A stretch of 24,453 nucleotides of DNA from a virus. The notes under the pieces were generated by a model. The model saw nothing but the letters and a program-made list of their open reading frames with translations. It ran no database searches and was not told the DNA's origin. Below are positions 1-24,215 of the stretch, piece after piece (the first letter of the stretch is position 1; each line of letters opens with the position of its first letter). A program made the translations under genes and the position numbers. Where the stretch lies: positions 1 through 24,453 of the IMG/VR virus record IMGVR_UViG_3300049595_002672. The stretch is one strand, 5' to 3'.

Positions 1-150
1 GATGTCGATGCCTAACTCGGTCAGCGCGTCGAGGTCGCGATGATCGATGGTGGTCTTTCCGGTCAGACGTTGGACATAAGGGCCAAGGTGTCCGGTCGGA
101 TAGATGCTCTGGCGTCCGTAGACGCTGCGTTCAAACAGTTGCAGTCTCAT
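1..150 (-). CDS. Small phage protein, C-terminus cut by window edge
   Basis: A minus-strand reading frame starts with ATG at 150 and runs off the window, so only the first 50 residues are visible (MRLQLFERSVYGRQSIYP...). An AAAGGAAA ribosome site lies just upstream, as in the neighbouring genes. The fragment is soluble, with an aromatic FERSVYG-x-x-x-x-YP stretch followed by TGKTTID, a shape I recall from short uncharacterised phage proteins. No function can be assigned. It is the most downstream visible gene of the minus-strand accessory block. Confidence 0.7.
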   Translation of the reverse strand, partial: MRLQLFERSVYGRQSIYPTGHLGPYVQRLTGKTTIDHRDLDALTELGIDI

Positions 151-179
151 GGTTTAGTTTCCTTTCTCTTGTGGGGTTA

Positions 180-362
180 TTACGAAGCCGCATCGAATTC
201 GATGGGCAGGGTGAGTTGCGGGTCGGCTTGCTTTTTCCGGGCAAGCTGGACGAGGTGCGCGTGACGCACGACCGCAGCGGACAAACGCAGTGCCGCGTCG
301 ATGTCGTAGTCGTGCGTCTCGTTGAAATAAGCCGCCGACTGAAGGATCAGTGATGTGTTCAT
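180..362 (-). CDS. Small hypothetical protein (60 aa)
   Basis: Begins MNTSLILQSAAYFNETHDYD. The ATG at 362 is preferred over the upstream non-ATG extension because GAAAGGAAAC lies directly before it. The protein looks mostly helical, with a central His/Arg-rich stretch (VVRHAHLVQLARKK) and an acidic end. No family is recognised. It is 29 bases upstream of the partial gene at the window edge and is probably cotranscribed with it. Its leader overlaps the 3' end of the preceding gene only by the ribosome-site region, so the spacing is tight. Confidence 0.7.
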   Translation of the reverse strand: MNTSLILQSAAYFNETHDYDIDAALRLSAAVVRHAHLVQLARKKQADPQLTLPIEFDAAS

Positions 363-382
363 GTGGTTTCCTTTCTGTTTGG

Positions 383-721
383 TTAAGCGGCCTCGCACGA
401 AACGCTTCGCGCAAAAGCCAAGACTTGTTCCGGCGTGTCCAAGACAAAGTGAACAGTCGGGGTGGAGTTGTCTGCCGGATCGCCGTCGATATGCCAGATC
501 TCCGACCTCTCATTGCTGATGTGCCGGATGCTGACATGGATCCGGTCGCCGACTTCGGGGACGCTGGCATCCTCAAATGCGGTGAGCATGATCTCGGTGT
601 TCCAGTTCTCGTCGGTGAACTCGGGGTATCGATGGGTGACGAGGGCATCGCAGCCCCCGCCAGTCCCGATCTTGCAGAACCCGCACTTGCGGAGTTCTTC
701 GTGTAGTTCTTCGGTTGTCAT
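383..721 (-). CDS. Hypothetical protein (112 aa) with N-terminal Cys cluster
   Basis: Starts MTTEELHEELRKCGFC at an ATG preceded by AAAGGAT. Cysteines at CGFC and in TGGGCDAL, near residues 13-25, could bind a metal, though a third and fourth ligand are not clear. The rest looks like a compact alpha/beta domain with a GDRIHVSIRHIS strand pair. A late Cys lies in SVSCEAA. No family is recognised. The leader repeats the ACCAAA...AAAGGA pattern of the gene below it. Confidence 0.75.
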   Translation of the reverse strand: MTTEELHEELRKCGFCKIGTGGGCDALVTHRYPEFTDENWNTEIMLTAFEDASVPEVGDRIHVSIRHISNERSEIWHIDGDPADNSTPTVHFVLDTPEQVLAFARSVSCEAA

Positions 722-2530: not shown

Positions 2531-2539
2531 AGGTCAGTT

Positions 2540-2554
2540 GTCCGGTGACCGGAC
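2540..2554. repeat. Palindrome copy 2 (GTCCG-GTGAC-CGGAC)
   Basis: Same stem as copy 1 with spacer GTGAC. Its end is shared with the TAG stop of the amidotransferase gene. It lies 9 bases upstream of the ATG at 2530. Confidence 0.85.
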
Positions 2555-3672
2555 TACACGATGCCGTCGAGAAGACGCTGGCTCTGCGGGATAAAGCTGC
2601 TCATACCCTGCAACTGTTCGAGTTCCTCTTCCGCCGTCAGATCGACCTCGCGCATCGTGGCGTAGGTCGCCAGATCGTCGTCGAGGTTGTGCTGCGTCAG
2701 ACCGATGTCCTCGGAACGTGCAGCCAAGCCGTCATACTTTCCGCTCGGCACTGTGACTGTGCTGTATGCACCCTCGGACTTCTTCTCGAAGCGGAACTCC
2801 GAGAGCTTGGGCTGCGAACCTCGGGGGCCGGAAGCCCATGAGGTGTCGATGGGGGCAAGGCTGCGACCGAGGCTGGCCGAAGCATATTGCGACTCGCGGC
2901 TGGTCGTGTCGCCGTGCAGCCAGCGACTCACTTTAGGATCGCCGCCGTTCTTCGGGAACTCCAACCATGACCAGTCGTCGATGGCGAAGGCTTCGAGCGA
3001 CTTGCAACGCCACGCATCGCCGATCGCTTCGACAATCTCCGGCTTCGTGCCGAAGATCCAGCGACCTTTCTTGGTGATGCCAGCATACAACGACGCCATC
3101 GAATCGACGGCGACGATGAGCTTGCCGCTCGGAGCGAGGGCGAGGAACGCAGCGTAGCCCGTGATGTGCATCATGGCTTCCCGCTGTTTCTCCGGATCGC
3201 CAGCGTTGTCGGTCAACGCATAGAGCAAGTGCTGCGAATCGCACGTTGCCTTGTTGTGGTGCTTGGTCTGCTTGCCGTGCCAAGTGACCACGCCATTGTG
3301 GGCCAACGACCAGCCGTCATGCCGGAACGGATGCGTGTTGCCAAGGTTCACGGCACACGTTGCAGTGCGTCCGTGGACGATGGTGGACTTCATCCGGTTG
3401 TAGTATCCGGTCTGCTCGAACCGCTTGCTGGCGGCGAAGGCGGAGAAGCCGTCTCCCGCGAGCTTGGACAACTGGGGCAACGCATCGAGCGTGCGGAAGT
3501 CATCGGGTTTCACATAGCGACCGCGCAGACCATTGGGTCCGGCTTGGGCGAAACCGAAGCCGTGACGCTCGGTTCTGCCGATTGCTTCTGCCGCTGCGAC
3601 AAGGGCTTTGTCGGCGGAGTGTCGGGTCAAAGGCGAGGCTTTGCTCGCTGTCCATCCTGCTAATTTACACAT
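2554..3672 (-). CDS. Class II glutamine amidotransferase (Ntn hydrolase)
   Basis: Members of this family hydrolyse glutamine and channel ammonia to a partner enzyme, using an N-terminal Cys exposed after Met removal. Here Cys2 is in place (MCKLAGW). Other family signatures follow: HGRTATC (100-106), NTHPF (112-116), the oxyanion-type LAHNG (123-127) and CDSQ (144-147). The catalytic domain spans roughly residues 1-230; the remaining 140 residues have no recognised match. ATG at 3672 has AAAGGAAA upstream. No synthase domain is fused, so the ammonia acceptor must be separate. The next gene upstream is a GS-like amidoligase, which fits that role. The substrate is unknown. Confidence 0.85.
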   Translation of the reverse strand: MCKLAGWTASKASPLTRHSADKALVAAAEAIGRTERHGFGFAQAGPNGLRGRYVKPDDFRTLDALPQLSKLAGDGFSAFAASKRFEQTGYYNRMKSTIVHGRTATCAVNLGNTHPFRHDGWSLAHNGVVTWHGKQTKHHNKATCDSQHLLYALTDNAGDPEKQREAMMHITGYAAFLALAPSGKLIVAVDSMASLYAGITKKGRWIFGTKPEIVEAIGDAWRCKSLEAFAIDDWSWLEFPKNGGDPKVSRWLHGDTTSRESQYASASLGRSLAPIDTSWASGPRGSQPKLSEFRFEKKSEGAYSTVTVPSGKYDGLAARSEDIGLTQHNLDDDLATYATMREVDLTAEEELEQLQGMSSFIPQSQRLLDGIV

Positions 3673-3708
3673 GGTATTTGTTTCCTTTCGTTATGGTTGA
3701 TGTTGTTT

Positions 3709-3723
3709 GTCCGGTGATCGGAC
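3709..3723. repeat. Palindrome copy 3 (GTCCG-GTGAT-CGGAC)
   Basis: Lies in the 55-base gap between the amidoligase stop (3728) and the amidotransferase start (3672), about 20 bases before the AAAGGAAA site. Confidence 0.85.
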
Positions 3724-3727
3724 TAGT

Positions 3728-5059
3728 TCACTGATCGTCCGTGCTGCAAACGGCAGTCACGGCTTGGCGCGGCATCCGGCGGTAGCCGGACAAGCGCGTG
3801 TCGGAAGCGTCGAAATGACGCACGAACTCGTCGCACTTGAGCGCCCCGTAGCGGTCAACATTGCGCGAGGTGTTGTTGATGGTGCGGACTTTGGCCTTCA
3901 TCGCTTTGATGATTTCCTTGAGCGTCTCCGGCTCATGGATCGCAGCCCACCGATAGAACGATGCCCACGCTTGCGGCGCGGTTTCGTTGGTGACGGACGC
4001 CTCGGGCGTCACGTTGTCCTCGCTCCACCGGGCGATGGCTTGCATGAGGGCGGCACGCATCCGCCACTCGCTCGGCTTGCGGCTCGTCGGCCACAAGCGG
4101 ACTTCGATCGTGCCGAGTCGCTCGAACTGGGCGGCACTGACCGCCGAATACTTGCGACCCAAGGCGTCATCCCAATTCTCGCAGCAAGCGTTGACCGCAC
4201 ACCAACGAGAGCGGCGGCGGGTCAACGGCGCAAGATACCGGAACCACGACAAGTGGTAACGCAACGAGTAGTAGACGGCTTGGCCGTAGTCCTCGGCACG
4301 TTTGCAGTTGATGTGGATGTGACCGCCGTTGCGCTCGATCGAACCGAGGTTGCTGACCAAGTTGCAAGCGACATCGGGCAACTTCTGCGTGATGCGGAAG
4401 CGGATCTCATGCTGACCGCCGCCATCGCGACCGACATCCCAGTAGGGTTTCTGGTAGCTGCGGATGCGGTTGGTGCTGACGCTGCGTCCGGTCGGCGTGG
4501 TCTTGTAACCATGCAAGCCAGTCGCTTCCAACTCACCACTGCACTCGTAGAGCGGAAGCCGATCCCAATACTCCGGAGTCAGAGGCTCGGGGAGCATCTG
4601 CTTGATCTTGGACTTCTCGATCGACTTGAGGAACTGGCCGACTCCCTTAACGACCTCGCGCTGATTTGCAGATCCGAACCAGTCGTTGCCGAAGTGACAG
4701 CGGATGCGCTCGATGAGATCCTGCAACGTGCCGCCATCCTTGCGGAAGGTGCGACGATACAGCTTGCGATGCCGGAGACATCCGACGATGACCGAAGCCA
4801 CGCCGCGCAAATGCCGACGCTGACGCTCGGCCCGCTCGTCGCGGTAACGCCGATAGACTCGTTCATAAGCCCTCTTGAGCACCGCCTTGTCGTCGTAATT
4901 GAGGACGTAGTAGTTCGGTGCTGAGTCGAGCGTGACCGGACTGTCCTTGGACTTCGCCCAGTTGTTGCGGAGATACCAATAGGCATACCGACCATCCTCC
5001 GAGAGATGCATCGGCTTCGATGCGACCTCGGCCAGTTGTAGTGTGGAGTTATTACTCAT
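3728..5059 (-). CDS. Glutamine-synthetase-like amidoligase (COOH-NH2 ligase, Amidoligase_2-type)
   Basis: The family uses ATP to join a carboxylate to an amine or ammonia. Visible signatures are GELEATG (175-181, metal-binding Glu pair), HEIRFRI (from 217), GGHIHI (245-250, the characteristic GxHxH strand) and EVRLWP (319-324). Residues 60-110 are very basic and may bind a nucleic acid or an acidic partner; this is inference. ATG at 5059 is chosen because GAAAGGAAAG lies upstream; an extension to 5140 would run through palindrome copy 5100-5114. Adjacent to the class II glutamine amidotransferase, the pair could form an amide from glutamine-derived ammonia. From memory such pairs are known in phages with unsolved substrates. 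The small-molecule or peptide target is not identifiable here. Confidence 0.75.
   Translation of the reverse strand: MSNNSTLQLAEVASKPMHLSEDGRYAYWYLRNNWAKSKDSPVTLDSAPNYYVLNYDDKAVLKRAYERVYRRYRDERAERQRRHLRGVASVIVGCLRHRKLYRRTFRKDGGTLQDLIERIRCHFGNDWFGSANQREVVKGVGQFLKSIEKSKIKQMLPEPLTPEYWDRLPLYECSGELEATGLHGYKTTPTGRSVSTNRIRSYQKPYWDVGRDGGGQHEIRFRITQKLPDVACNLVSNLGSIERNGGHIHINCKRAEDYGQAVYYSLRYHLSWFRYLAPLTRRRSRWCAVNACCENWDDALGRKYSAVSAAQFERLGTIEVRLWPTSRKPSEWRMRAALMQAIARWSEDNVTPEASVTNETAPQAWASFYRWAAIHEPETLKEIIKAMKAKVRTINNTSRNVDRYGALKCDEFVRHFDASDTRLSGYRRMPRQAVTAVCSTDDQ
5042..5054 (-). repeat. Junction motif TAATAACTCCACA, copy a
   Basis: Perfect 13-base copy on the minus strand. Unusually it lies inside the first codons of the amidoligase (AGT AAT AAC TCC ACA) rather than before the start. 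This either questions the assigned start or shows that the motif is not a ribosome site. Confidence 0.75.
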
Positions 5060-5099
5060 AGGTCTAACTTTCCTTTCATGTGTTGTTTGGTTGTTGCTT

Positions 5100-5114
5100 G
5101 TCCGGTGATCGGAC
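5100..5114. repeat. Palindrome copy 4 (GTCCG-GTGAT-CGGAC)
   Basis: Flanked by TT and AA, giving TTGTCCG-N5-CGGACAA. It lies upstream of the amidoligase leader. Confidence 0.85.
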
Positions 5115-5133
5115 AACTCTGTCCGGTTTGAAC

Positions 5134-5173
5134 AAGCCATCCGCCCCCTCGCATGGAAGGGGCGGTGCGGCTT
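5134..5173 (-). other. GC-rich stem-loop between genes
   Basis: CCGCCCC (5141-5147) pairs with GGGGCGG (5159-5165) around an 11-base loop. An outer AAGCC/GGCTT stem (5134-5138, 5169-5173) extends it. Minus-strand bases after it (TTGTTCAAACC) are only weakly T-rich, so a terminator or attenuator between 5183 and the amidoligase is possible but not clear. Confidence 0.5.
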
Positions 5174-5562: not shown

Positions 5563-5580
5563 TGTCCGGAATTCCGGACA
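5563..5580. repeat. Perfect 18-bp palindrome TGTCCGGAATTCCGGACA
   Basis: A fully symmetric relative of the GTCCG-N5-CGGAC copies, with AATT at its centre. It sits upstream of the 5183-5542 gene and 4 bases from junction motif copy b. Confidence 0.9.
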
Positions 5581-5584
5581 AGGT

Positions 5585-5597
5585 TGTGGAGTTATTA
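5585..5597 (-). repeat. Junction motif TAATAACTCCACA, copy b
   Basis: Perfect copy whose first TAA is the stop codon of the 5595-5693 gene. The next gene start is 43 bases further on, so here the motif is not next to a start codon. Confidence 0.75.
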
Positions 5598-5695: not shown

Positions 5696-5708
5696 TGTGG
5701 AGTTATTA
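5696..5708 (-). repeat. Junction motif TAATAACTCCACA, copy c
   Basis: Perfect copy. It begins with the TAA stop of the 5706-5921 gene and ends 3 bases before the ATG at 5693. Confidence 0.8.
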
Positions 5709-5921: not shown

Positions 5922-5940
5922 CTGTCTGTTTTGATTCCTT

Positions 5941-5955
5941 GTCCGATCACCGGAC
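5941..5955. repeat. Palindrome copy 5 (GTCCG-ATCAC-CGGAC)
   Basis: Spacer ATCAC is the reverse complement of the usual GTGAT, so this copy is inverted relative to copies 1, 3, 4 and 7. Flanks extend the symmetry to CTTGTCCG-N5-CGGACAAG. Confidence 0.85.
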
Positions 5956-5983
5956 AAGTCTCGCCGTATTGGGCAAGGGACAA

Positions 5984-6069: not shown

Positions 6070-6100
6070 GGTTCATGGTTCACGCTGCGGGGTTCGCGTT

Positions 6101-6115
6101 GTCCGGTCACCGGAC
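6101..6115. repeat. Palindrome copy 6 (GTCCG-GTCAC-CGGAC)
   Basis: Inverted form of copy 2. Its end overlaps the TAG stop of the 6115-6516 gene, as in copies 1 and 2. Confidence 0.85.
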
Positions 6116-6516
6116 TATTTACGGAACAGACGAGCGACGACAGCGCGATACAGCTTCTTGTCTCCGCCTACGAGTTTGAGCAACGCGGCTTCCGCCTTGG
6201 GCAGCATGGCGTCGATCTTCTCGCTGGCCTCTGCACGGCTCTTCGATTTGGCGCGGCGGGTGATGCCGTAGGATTGGAGCAACTCACTGATGCGCTGTTT
6301 CGCGTAGCCATTCGCCTTGAGCGTGGCGGTGACCTCTGCAACGTCGATTGCTTCGCGATTGTCCTTGATGAACGCGCAAAGCGTTTCGCGTTGCATTGTC
6401 GCTGCTTGGGTCAGGGTTTCGATTTGATGGATCTCGCGAGCGATTGCATCGTTCACGCTGTCCTTCGTTTCTGCCACGCTGTAGTTGATGCTGATGGTGA
6501 TGTGGTTCTTTTTCAT
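6115..6516 (-). CDS. Hypothetical helical protein (133 aa)
   Basis: Starts MKKNHITISINYSVAETKD after AAAGAAAGATCAGCAT, a weaker version of the block's usual ribosome site. Residues 20-75 look helical. GYAKQRISELLQSYGITRRAKSKSRAEASEK resembles a helix followed by a basic patch and could bind DNA, but no HTH is certain. It is the first minus-strand gene of the accessory block, divergent from the plus-strand gene at 6636. Confidence 0.7.
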   Translation of the reverse strand: MKKNHITISINYSVAETKDSVNDAIAREIHQIETLTQAATMQRETLCAFIKDNREAIDVAEVTATLKANGYAKQRISELLQSYGITRRAKSKSRAEASEKIDAMLPKAEAALLKLVGGDKKLYRAVVARLFRK

Positions 6517-6545
6517 ATGCTGATCTTTCTTTCTGTTTGGTTGTT

Positions 6546-6560
6546 GTCCGGTGATCGGAC
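6546..6560. repeat. Palindrome copy 7 (GTCCG-GTGAT-CGGAC)
   Basis: Lies in the divergent interval 6517-6635 between the first minus-strand gene of the block and the plus-strand gene at 6636, where an operator could act on both directions. Confidence 0.85.
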
Positions 6561-6635
6561 AGCGTCTTGCTGCCCTTTCCGGTTCATTAATAAGTGACCA
6601 GCAGCGCGATTTACTCTGTTACGAGAGGGGGAAAT

Positions 6636-11806: not shown

Positions 11807-11819
11807 GGTGGAGTTATTA
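11807..11819 (-). repeat. Junction motif TAATAACTCCACC, copy d
   Basis: 12 of 13 bases match. It begins with the tandem TAA stops of the polymerase gene, preceded by AAA, and lies just before the primase-helicase start. Confidence 0.75.
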
Positions 11820-20224: not shown

Positions 20225-20236
20225 GTGGAGTTATTA
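20224..20236 (-). repeat. Junction motif TAATAACTCCACA, copy g
   Basis: Perfect copy running straight into ATG (CCACATG). Upstream on the minus strand, TTGCGT and GATAAT are separated by 17 bases, so a promoter giving a nearly leaderless transcript is possible. Confidence 0.75.
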
Positions 20237-22436: not shown

Positions 22437-24215
22437 ATGTCTTTGATTTTAGTGAAATCCGGCATTCAACCGCCGGCCGGCTCGATCCAACGCTACGGTG
22501 CTTGGTGGCCGCAGCACACCGCTGACTGGGCGATTGAGTTGTTTTGTTTCCGTGGGATGGACACGGCGGGGATGGATGTTCTTTCGAGGGAACAGCACTT
22601 CAAAAACGCCGCCCAAATGTTCTTCCACAAGAAATCGGAGAACTTCATCTGGCACCCCTGGGCGGACGATATGCTTTACGAGTGCTGCCATCAGAAGTTT
22701 GTCGGTTTCGCTGGTTGCGGTTCGAGCGGCAAGTCGGAATTCATGGCGATCTGGGCTCTGCTCAACTGGCTTTCGGCCCCGTTCCACACGCTCTCGCTCG
22801 TCACGAGCACGAGTATTCGCGATGCCAAGAAGCGGGTCTGGGGTGCTATTCAACGCTACTGGCCGTGCATCAAGTCGGTCGCTCCGGGGAAGTTAGCGGA
22901 TACTCCGACTCCGGCCATCTACGCGATCCGCAACGGCGAGCGGATGGAACAGGCGGGTGTGTATTTGATTCCGGCCGAAGCCAAGAAGACCTCGGAGGTC
23001 ACCGGAAAAATGAGAGGCATGAAAGCCCACCGGGTCATCGTCGCGGCGGACGAGCTTTCGGAACTTGGACATGCCTTCCTCGATACCGCCCTTTCGAACC
23101 TTTCCAACAACCCCGAGCTTCACATCTGCGCGGCGGCGAACCCTGTCAGCTATTACGACCCCTTCGGCCGCTTCGTCGAGCCGACGAACGGTTGGGGGAG
23201 CATCACGGTGAACGACGAGCGGTGGGAGACGAAGATCGGCGGGGTCTGTCTACACCTCGACGCACTCAAGAATCCGAACTACTTGGCCGGTGAGAACAAA
23301 TGGCCGATCCAAAAATGGGAGAAGATCGATGAGGCCCGCGAGCGACTCGGTGAGGACAATCCGATCTTCTGGCGTGATTATCGCGGGTTTTGGCCACCGC
23401 AGGCGGTCAGCAAAGCCATCTACAGCGAGGCCGAGATCATCCGCTTCCAAGCCGACCAGAAGCCCGTGTGGAGGGGCCGCGTCGAACGAATCGTCGGCAT
23501 CGACCCCTCCTTTGTGAGCGGCGGGGATAGATGTGTGATTTATCTGGGCTCGTTTGGCCAGAACAAAGACGGAGTGGACCAAGTTTCCTTTGACGAGTTC
23601 TACTTCCTCGACGAGGAAGCGAGCAATCCCGAACCGCGCACTTTTCAGATCGCGAAGAAAATTAAAGACATCGTGACTAAGGCGGGCGTCCCTTGGAGGA
23701 ATATCGGGGTCGACGTGACGGGCGGAGGGGTGCCGTTTTGCGATGCGCTGGCGACGGTGTGTGGCTCGAATGAATTTCAGCGCGTTCACTTCGGCGGAGC
23801 CCCGTCGAGCCGATCACTCTCGGCTTACGATTCCACCCCTGCCGACGAAAAGTATGTCAACAAAGTCACCGAGCTTTGGTTCGGGGCGAAAGAGTTCCTT
23901 TCGAGCGGGCAGCTTCGCGGGATCGGTCCGGATCTGGCCCGAGAGATGACCGGCCGGAACTACGATACCAGAAAGTCCGGTTCGATGAAGGTCGTGGTTG
24001 AGAGCAAGACTGACATGAAGGCCAGGATCGGTCGCTCGCCGGACGTGGCCGATGCCGCCTTTGTCATGCTCGATGTTGTCCGCGAAAGGTTTGGGATGCG
24101 TCCGCCGCAGGAGGGTGGCAGTGGGAAAAGGGGAGGGCAGACGAAATGGAAGCACACAATGACGACCGGCAAGTTTGCTCCGAGGCGCACGGCCAATTTG
24201 CTCAGTTCTTTCTGA
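22437..24215 (+). CDS. terL: Terminase large subunit
   Basis: ATP-driven motor and nuclease that packages DNA into the head. Walker A is GCGSSGKS (93-100), Walker B is VIVAADE (200-206). The RNase H-like nuclease is marked by GIDPSF near 355, GVDVTG near 424 and SPDVADAAF near 537, each with an Asp in place. Length 592 is typical. No ribosome site precedes the ATG. It is the first long plus-strand gene after the attP region and presumably opens the late, virion-building part of the genome. A hairpin and the junction motif follow the stop. Confidence 0.92.
   Translation: MSLILVKSGIQPPAGSIQRYGAWWPQHTADWAIELFCFRGMDTAGMDVLSREQHFKNAAQMFFHKKSENFIWHPWADDMLYECCHQKFVGFAGCGSSGKSEFMAIWALLNWLSAPFHTLSLVTSTSIRDAKKRVWGAIQRYWPCIKSVAPGKLADTPTPAIYAIRNGERMEQAGVYLIPAEAKKTSEVTGKMRGMKAHRVIVAADELSELGHAFLDTALSNLSNNPELHICAAANPVSYYDPFGRFVEPTNGWGSITVNDERWETKIGGVCLHLDALKNPNYLAGENKWPIQKWEKIDEARERLGEDNPIFWRDYRGFWPPQAVSKAIYSEAEIIRFQADQKPVWRGRVERIVGIDPSFVSGGDRCVIYLGSFGQNKDGVDQVSFDEFYFLDEEASNPEPRTFQIAKKIKDIVTKAGVPWRNIGVDVTGGGVPFCDALATVCGSNEFQRVHFGGAPSSRSLSAYDSTPADEKYVNKVTELWFGAKEFLSSGQLRGIGPDLAREMTGRNYDTRKSGSMKVVVESKTDMKARIGRSPDVADAAFVMLDVVRERFGMRPPQEGGSGKRGGQTKWKHTMTTGKFAPRRTANLLSSF

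Follow-up and report, generated by a model that had tools for sequence, protein, structure and literature searches.

What does a phage gain from a glutamine amidotransferase (GATase) whose gene lies directly beside that of a ligase of the glutamine synthetase (GS) type? This question is raised by a 24,453-base IMG/VR virus record (IMGVR_UViG_3300049595_002672), the whole of which is called the window here. A first-pass annotation had placed an amidotransferase-amidoligase pair at 2554-5059 and had proposed that the two proteins work together. Both open reading frames (ORFs) were found at these positions, both family assignments are supported, and adjacency, profile links and a correlation of distance matrices speak for the proposed coupling. 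We conclude that the pair is real and conserved, and very probably functionally coupled. The features of the locus are listed in Table 1.

Table 1. Features of the amidoligase-GATase locus and of the two proteins (window positions unless residues are given)
Feature	Position	Strand	Basis
Amidoligase, GS-like, PF12224-related, 443 amino acids	3728..5059	-	ORF, alignment, model, profiles
Helical, fast-evolving N-terminal arm of amidoligase	residues ~1-165		alignment, model
GS-like catalytic domain of amidoligase	residues ~166-400		alignment, model
Class II GATase (PF13522), 372 amino acids	2554..3672	-	ORF, Pfam, alignment
GATase catalytic domain with Cys2	residues ~1-270		alignment
GATase acidic C-terminal tail, low model confidence	residues 271-372		alignment, model
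Intergenic gap between amidoligase and GATase, 55 bases, contains palindrome 3707-3725	3673..3727	-	
19-bp palindrome TTGTCCGGTGATCGGACAA upstream of amidoligase, putative regulatory role	5098..5116	no strand	
Palindrome overlapping GATase stop codon, putative regulatory role	2538..2556	no strand	
Further palindrome sites	1259-1277, 5939-5957, 6099-6117, 6544-6562		
Palindrome variant, core GGAATTCC	5563-5580		
Terminase large subunit (PHROG 2)	22437-24215		

Conservation of the gene pair

The pair was followed across 42 virus contigs, namely 41 found by scans seeded with either gene and the window itself, all searched with local hidden Markov models (HMMs). The two genes are same-strand neighbours in 37 of them, the opposite of the outcome named by the first-pass annotation as fatal to its idea, that homologues are never neighbours; the other five contigs carry one gene and are cut at the contig end. 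The 37 paired contigs form 22 clusters at 90% and 14 clusters at 70% GATase identity, and no more than 154 bases separate a stop from the following open frame in the 30 of 37 pairs that were measured. GATases of merely 26-36% identity also adjoin amidoligases, and the four such amidoligases that were scanned all pass the PF12224 cut-off. The distance matrices of the two proteins correlate with r 0.91 over 14 contigs (0 of 5000 permutations reach this value), a figure that leaves shared descent in. Both genes show a ratio of nonsynonymous to synonymous substitution (dN/dS) of ~0.3-0.4 at dS near 1 in a comparison of three contigs, which indicates that both are under purifying selection. The amidoligase ORF as listed begins at 5140; the ATG at 5059, the start given in the first-pass annotation, matches the first ATG in the close relative L002/L010.

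A neighbourhood of this kind could result from shared ancestry alone, without joint function, since common descent links many of the contigs. We consider this very improbable. The adjacency extends across the 14 clusters at 70% identity, the gene order is inverted (GATase first) in one lineage represented by 2 of the 37 pairs (contigs 42335 and 42389; loci L033 and L048), and named phages that infect E. coli, Arthrobacter and Aeromonas have such pairs as well. Among nine annotated phage records examined for the arrangement, the amidoligase is directly followed by the GATase in Salgado, Ottawa, phiEco32 and LAh_8, and a single ORF of 43 amino acids separates the two in MW202637.

A tblastn search of INPHARED with the two window proteins returned no match for one and two weak matches for the other, and the GATase of the distant locus L079 returned none. 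With a divergent amidoligase as query, tblastn hit proteins annotated as amidoligases in phages of Arthrobacter, Porphyromonas and Bacillus. Of 50,697 phage records, 98 contain a relative of the Salgado amidoligase and 332 a relative of the Salgado GATase, the overlap between the two sets not being counted. Pattern scans reaching near relatives only found no cellular relative of the amidoligase and two weak cellular relatives of the GATase, which were left out of the 42 contigs. Neither gene of the pair matched a defence profile.

Identity of the amidoligase

The window amidoligase alone has zero matches in Pfam and does not reach the gathering cut-off of PF12224, so its family membership was checked by other routes. 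Two of 14 aligned amidoligase relatives (alignment A1) match PF12224 at E≤1, the best with E 0.0022. When A1 was compared by hhalign with an alignment of ten divergent phage amidoligases (A3), the two matched with 96% probability (E 3.8e-9). An HMM built from A3, from which the window was excluded, detects the window amidoligase at E 7.9e-10, and all five scanned members of A3 pass the PF12224 cut-off.

The structural comparisons point the same way. The AlphaFold2 model of the amidoligase (mean per-residue confidence, pLDDT, 83) matches YbdK (1r8g) with Z 12.9 over 218 aligned residues (root-mean-square deviation 4.2; residues ~160-400) and 1tt4 with Z 12.9 over 219 aligned residues (deviation 4.1). 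Matches to Dop, glutamine synthetases and GmaS reach Z 11.6. Foldseek alone finds YbdK at E 1.8e-3 with a TM-score of ~0.3. Among the viral models of BFVD there are 36 matches at E≤0.001; 20 of these are named, and 14 of the 20 are amidoligases, including those of Salgado and tf. These matches to YbdK, Dop, GS and phage amidoligases bear out the GS-like fold for which the first-pass annotation had asked a structure prediction; the N-terminal 165 residues were scarcely probed by the structure searches.

The motifs on which that annotation relied (GxExE, GGHIHI and EVRLWP) also hold, with G175-E176-L177-E178, G245-G246-H247-I248-H249 and E319/R321/W323 as invariant residues. More broadly, A1 contains the invariant motifs CSGELEA, DGGGQ-E, NGGHIH-N and GT-E-R-W, and E176xE178, D212-GGGQ-E218, H247/H249 and E319/R321 are kept in 14 of 14 sequences. 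On these profiles, motifs and model, the protein is clearly a divergent GS-like amidoligase linked to PF12224.

In all 91 sequence pairs the amidoligase is the faster-diverging of the two proteins, and its N-terminal arm is less conserved than its catalytic part: with the nearest relative excluded, identity to the window protein is 11-44% in the arm and 41-70% in the catalytic part. Such a pattern would fit a constant glutamine with a changing acceptor or partner surface, a conjecture at this stage. The very basic region proposed earlier for residues 60-110 is present, with a net charge of +15 over residues 58-107, but it does not stand out, as the catalytic part is likewise basic (+12). In all 14 relatives the N-terminal part has a positive net charge, from +6 to +16 (that of L022 is cut short).

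Identity of the GATase

The window GATase matches Pfam PF13522 (GATase_6) at E 3.9e-7 and 30.6 bits, above the cut-off of 27; each of the 14 aligned relatives (alignment A2) reaches E≤0.01 with this family. A comparison of A2 with seven divergent GATases gave an alignment at 100% probability. Cys2, HGRTAT, HNG and CDS are invariant in the 14 sequences, with C2, R102, N126-G127 and D145 kept; we take the Cys nucleophile, the Arg, the Asn-Gly and the Asp to be the residues of the glutamine site. After each ORF had been trimmed to its first Met-Cys, the glutaminase motifs were present in 37 of 37 paired GATases, in agreement with the earlier description of a complete set of catalytic motifs.

The AlphaFold2 model of the GATase is too poor for fold searching (mean pLDDT 49.9), so that the assignment to the N-terminal nucleophile (Ntn) hydrolase fold rests on sequence. 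The GATase has no PDB sequence match at E≤0.01, and profile searches of PDB sequences gave nothing relevant for the pair. The C-terminal tail has a net charge of -3 to -10 and is acidic in all 13 complete sequences, the fourteenth being truncated.

An apparently reduced form of a phage cassette

In some known phages the two genes stand together with further enzymes, namely GGCT and, in part of these phages, a COOH-NH2 ligase and an ATP-grasp ligase. A profile search found GGCT, COOH-NH2 ligase and RimK in none of 17 records, and it also left the RimK of phiEco32 itself below the cut-off. As this search had missed the known GATase of G001, it was repeated with local HMMs built from named phages. 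These were run on six whole contigs of 44-74 kb (G001, G002, G004, G005, G006 and G008), on the window and on four loci (L012, L013, L074 and L082). None of the three partners was detected in the window, the six contigs or the four loci, with the limit that the contigs may be fragments. As controls, the GGCT of phiEco32, which was outside the model, was recovered at 2.4e-12, and a leave-one-out test of the partner HMMs recovered 10 of 10 members. Pfam likewise found none of the three partners among 29 window proteins. The group of the window therefore looks like a reduced variant of the known phage cassette, with two genes in ~2.5 kb.

Elsewhere GGCT does occur: six of eight phage-collection records examined for it gave a match, as did the record from which the distant locus L079 comes. 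The GGCT protein of C75C1 also weakly matches a GATase profile (E 3.2e-4).

Proposed activity and alternatives

Leaving the target aside, we lean towards the interpretation that the pair forms a two-part, glutamine-dependent and ATP-driven amide ligase. As its intact motifs suggest, the class II GATase would split glutamine into glutamate and ammonia by means of Cys2. Fold and motifs of the amidoligase point to a GS-like site in which ATP and metal ions would serve to turn a carboxylate into an activated acyl phosphate; attack of the ammonia on this acyl phosphate would then give a primary amide. The two proteins probably touch; judging from charge, the basic amidoligase might perhaps meet the acidic GATase tail.

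Several observations weigh against this interpretation. To our knowledge there is no biochemistry for this pair, and GS-like enzymes normally use free ammonia or an amine. The shared descent left in the matrix correlation weakens it as a sign of coupling. The catalytic part of the amidoligase carries a net charge of +10 to +18 across relatives, so basicity is not special to the arm. No amidoligase was found within ~11 kb around the two cellular GATase relatives. Among the annotated phages, Vibrio phage 1.293.O has the GATase first and two genes between, within one cassette, and an insensitive screen, which had missed the G001 GATase, gave no PF13522 match for C75C1, Bacillus 055SW001 and a Porphyromonas phage. 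Finally, the NCBIfam family that best matches the GATase is that of the amidohydrolase EgtC; the match, at E 1.7e-4, falls far short of the cut-off.

The last point leads to a different use of the same two proteins, a gamma-glutamyl cycle. The amidoligase would join glutamate to an amine, as YbdK/GCS-like enzymes, PuuA and EgtA do, and the class II protein would be an amidohydrolase of the EgtC or DUG3 kind that later removes the glutamyl group, and not an ammonia donor. The weak match to EgtC is paralleled by one of the amidoligase to YbdK (TIGR02050, E 0.0065), YbdK is among its top structural matches, GGCT, itself a gamma-glutamyl enzyme, goes along with related pairs, and stand-alone class II proteins are often hydrolases. 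We nevertheless regard such a cycle as unlikely, because both NCBIfam matches are far under the cut-off and GGCT was not found in the group of the window; the Pfam class GATase_6 is too broad to settle the matter.

If the pair is an amide ligase, its likeliest use would be the amidation of a cell-envelope carboxylate, for example on a peptidoglycan side chain, by which competing phages would be blocked; we offer this as a tentative possibility. A small lysozyme-like ORF lies within ~1.5 kb upstream of the divergent amidoligase in L073, L076, L077 and L079. Its SLT match is below the cut-off in L073 and L076 and there is none in L079, so we give it no weight for a role at the cell wall. A more specific version, in which a GS-fold ligase with a charge-docked class II GATase and a fast-diverging arm would address a lineage-specific host target, and thus act as a minimal target-switching amidation weapon, appears rather doubtful to us; we lowered our estimate of it because the catalytic part of the amidoligase is as basic as the arm.

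The genomic setting of the pair varies. In L081 and L082 the divergent pair precedes a portal-like gene, with a terminase-like gene also upstream in L082, and in L078 and L080 it lies near a T7-like RNA polymerase, all named by eye. The portal-like gene after the pair in L081 and L082 indicates that the pair can sit in more than one part of the genome. These settings bear on a further explanation, that the pair amidates the carboxyl of a modified base or nucleotide in the phage. The window does encode a dCMP deaminase, a family A polymerase, DUF1599 (nucleotide modification associated domain 1) and DUF5906, and a basic amidoligase could bind nucleic acid. Pfam recognised no base-carboxylating enzyme among the 29 window proteins, however, and the positions before a portal-like gene (L082) or near the polymerase (L078, L080) also speak against a link to nucleotides, which we judge improbable.

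Neighbouring genes and palindromes

The first-pass annotation had suggested that small genes at 2255, 5183, 5595 and 5706 could be carriers, targets or immunity factors. The ORFs of the window were compared by BLAST with 23 other loci, of which L004 and L002 belong to the lineage of the window, and some of which are too short for both flanks (L022 begins inside the amidoligase and L013 ends shortly past the GATase). Of the 23, the comparison detected the GATase in 21 and the amidoligase in 16. Only L002, L004, L012 and L024 gave matches to the genes at 2255 and 5183; the gene at 5706 turned up in three of these four, and a gene at 6115 in three loci. The suggestion is thus not sustained for 2255, 5183 and 5706, which are confined to the closest relatives, and no ORF of at least 40 amino acids starts or stops at 5595. 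We rejected the small genes as fixed partners travelling with the pair, as they occur in three to four of the 23 loci versus 21 for the GATase. Of the small genes, that at 5183 matches two phage families without an assigned function, PF23790 and PHROG 554.

The palindrome of Table 1, or a near-copy of it, occurs at seven intergenic or gene-end sites of the window, where 0.06 would be expected by chance. Four palindrome sites were found in the close relative L002/L010, all of them GGAATTCC, and the corresponding region of L024 holds three copies of TTGTCGGAATTCCGACAA. The palindromes behave as if they were operators of a phage regulator, changing together. A second string, GTGGAGTTATTA (minus strand TAATAACTCCAC), is present six times in the window, for example at 5043-5054, 5697-5708, 11808-11819 and 20225-20236. 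Two of the copies, at 11808 and 20225, are placed shortly upstream of start codons on the minus strand, and the copy at 5043 is inside the amidoligase gene.

The terminase large subunit has no relative at 1e-10 among the 50,697 phage records, which suggests a phage from a sparsely sampled group.

Relation to known systems

That such pairs were known in phages from sequence, without a defined substrate, as stated in the first-pass annotation, is borne out by phiEco32, Salgado, Ottawa and the LUZ24-like phages. The two-family pair as such is therefore not new; what seems new here is the reduced form without GGCT, COOH-NH2 ligase and ATP-grasp. This two-gene form would let the core reaction be studied without the other ligases of the cassette. 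If an amide is indeed formed on a host or envelope carboxylate, this would account for a set of genes widespread in phages, and the pair would be an example of a GS-fold enzyme served by a glutaminase partner of its own.

As far as the consulted part of PMC10580990 goes, the product of the phage amidoligase and GATase has been a matter of proposal since 2009, when Iyer et al. (cited therein) suggested for phiEco32 a change of the cell wall against superinfection; the same source reports both families in OM43 phages. A peptidoglycan modification cassette has been described in podoviruses, according to an excerpt (PMC5498523). The literature, partially covered, yielded no enzyme assay of a phage amidoligase, which is weak evidence of absence.

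A role in auxiliary nitrogen metabolism has been claimed for Phage-ZRK32, a Planctomycetes phage which, in the portion of the report consulted, carries amidoligase and glutamine amidotransferase genes tied to nitrogen metabolism and promotes growth (PMC10945688). By analogy, the pair of the window could shift the glutamine, glutamate and ammonia pools of the host. We find little probability in this, as the tests described in that portion used the whole phage and not the enzymes (PMC10945688), and the fast-evolving N-terminal arm suggests a specific partner or acceptor over bulk nitrogen flow. An amide ligase remains our preferred interpretation.

Two cellular systems offer more distant comparisons. 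EgtA/EgtC combines a GS/GCS-like ligase with the class II Ntn protein EgtC; it and the YbdK/GCS-like enzymes share the GS/GCS-like ligase fold with the amidoligase and give weak NCBIfam matches, but the window proteins are below every curated cut-off and no common substrate is known. MurT-GatD differs from the window pair in being cellular, with a Mur-ligase relative as its ligase, and is not homologous to it; GatD is a class I GATase. In its working it is alike, a ligase and a partner amidotransferase amidating peptidoglycan, as the accessible text has it (PMC3267633).

The closest comparisons are with phages. In the LUZ24-like phage UFV-P2, the available section of the genome report shows Amidoligase_2 (PF12224) and GATase_6 (PF13522) in one block, ORF21-29, as in the window, but with an HNH gene between the two and with COOH-NH2 ligase, ATP-grasp and AIG2 as additional partners (PMC3890496). 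Both enzymes are also named in the LUZ24-like phage tf (PMC3517423, in part). The cassette of phiEco32 (Kuravirus), gp77-gp86, has the amidoligase gp84 (PF12224) directly before the GATase gp83 (PF13522) on the same strand and in the same order as in the window. It differs in the presence of the COOH-NH2 ligase gp86, the ATP-grasp-type ligase gp80, annotated as S6 glutaminyl transferase, and the GGCT gp77, and its proteins, among them a gp83 of 676 amino acids, are distantly alike to those of the window. The Arthrobacter phages Salgado (Laroyevirus, gp98-gp99) and Ottawa (gp65-gp66) share the adjacent amidoligase and GATase in this order on one strand, and differ in a GGCT gene directly upstream of the amidoligase, the counterpart of which was not found in the group of the window.

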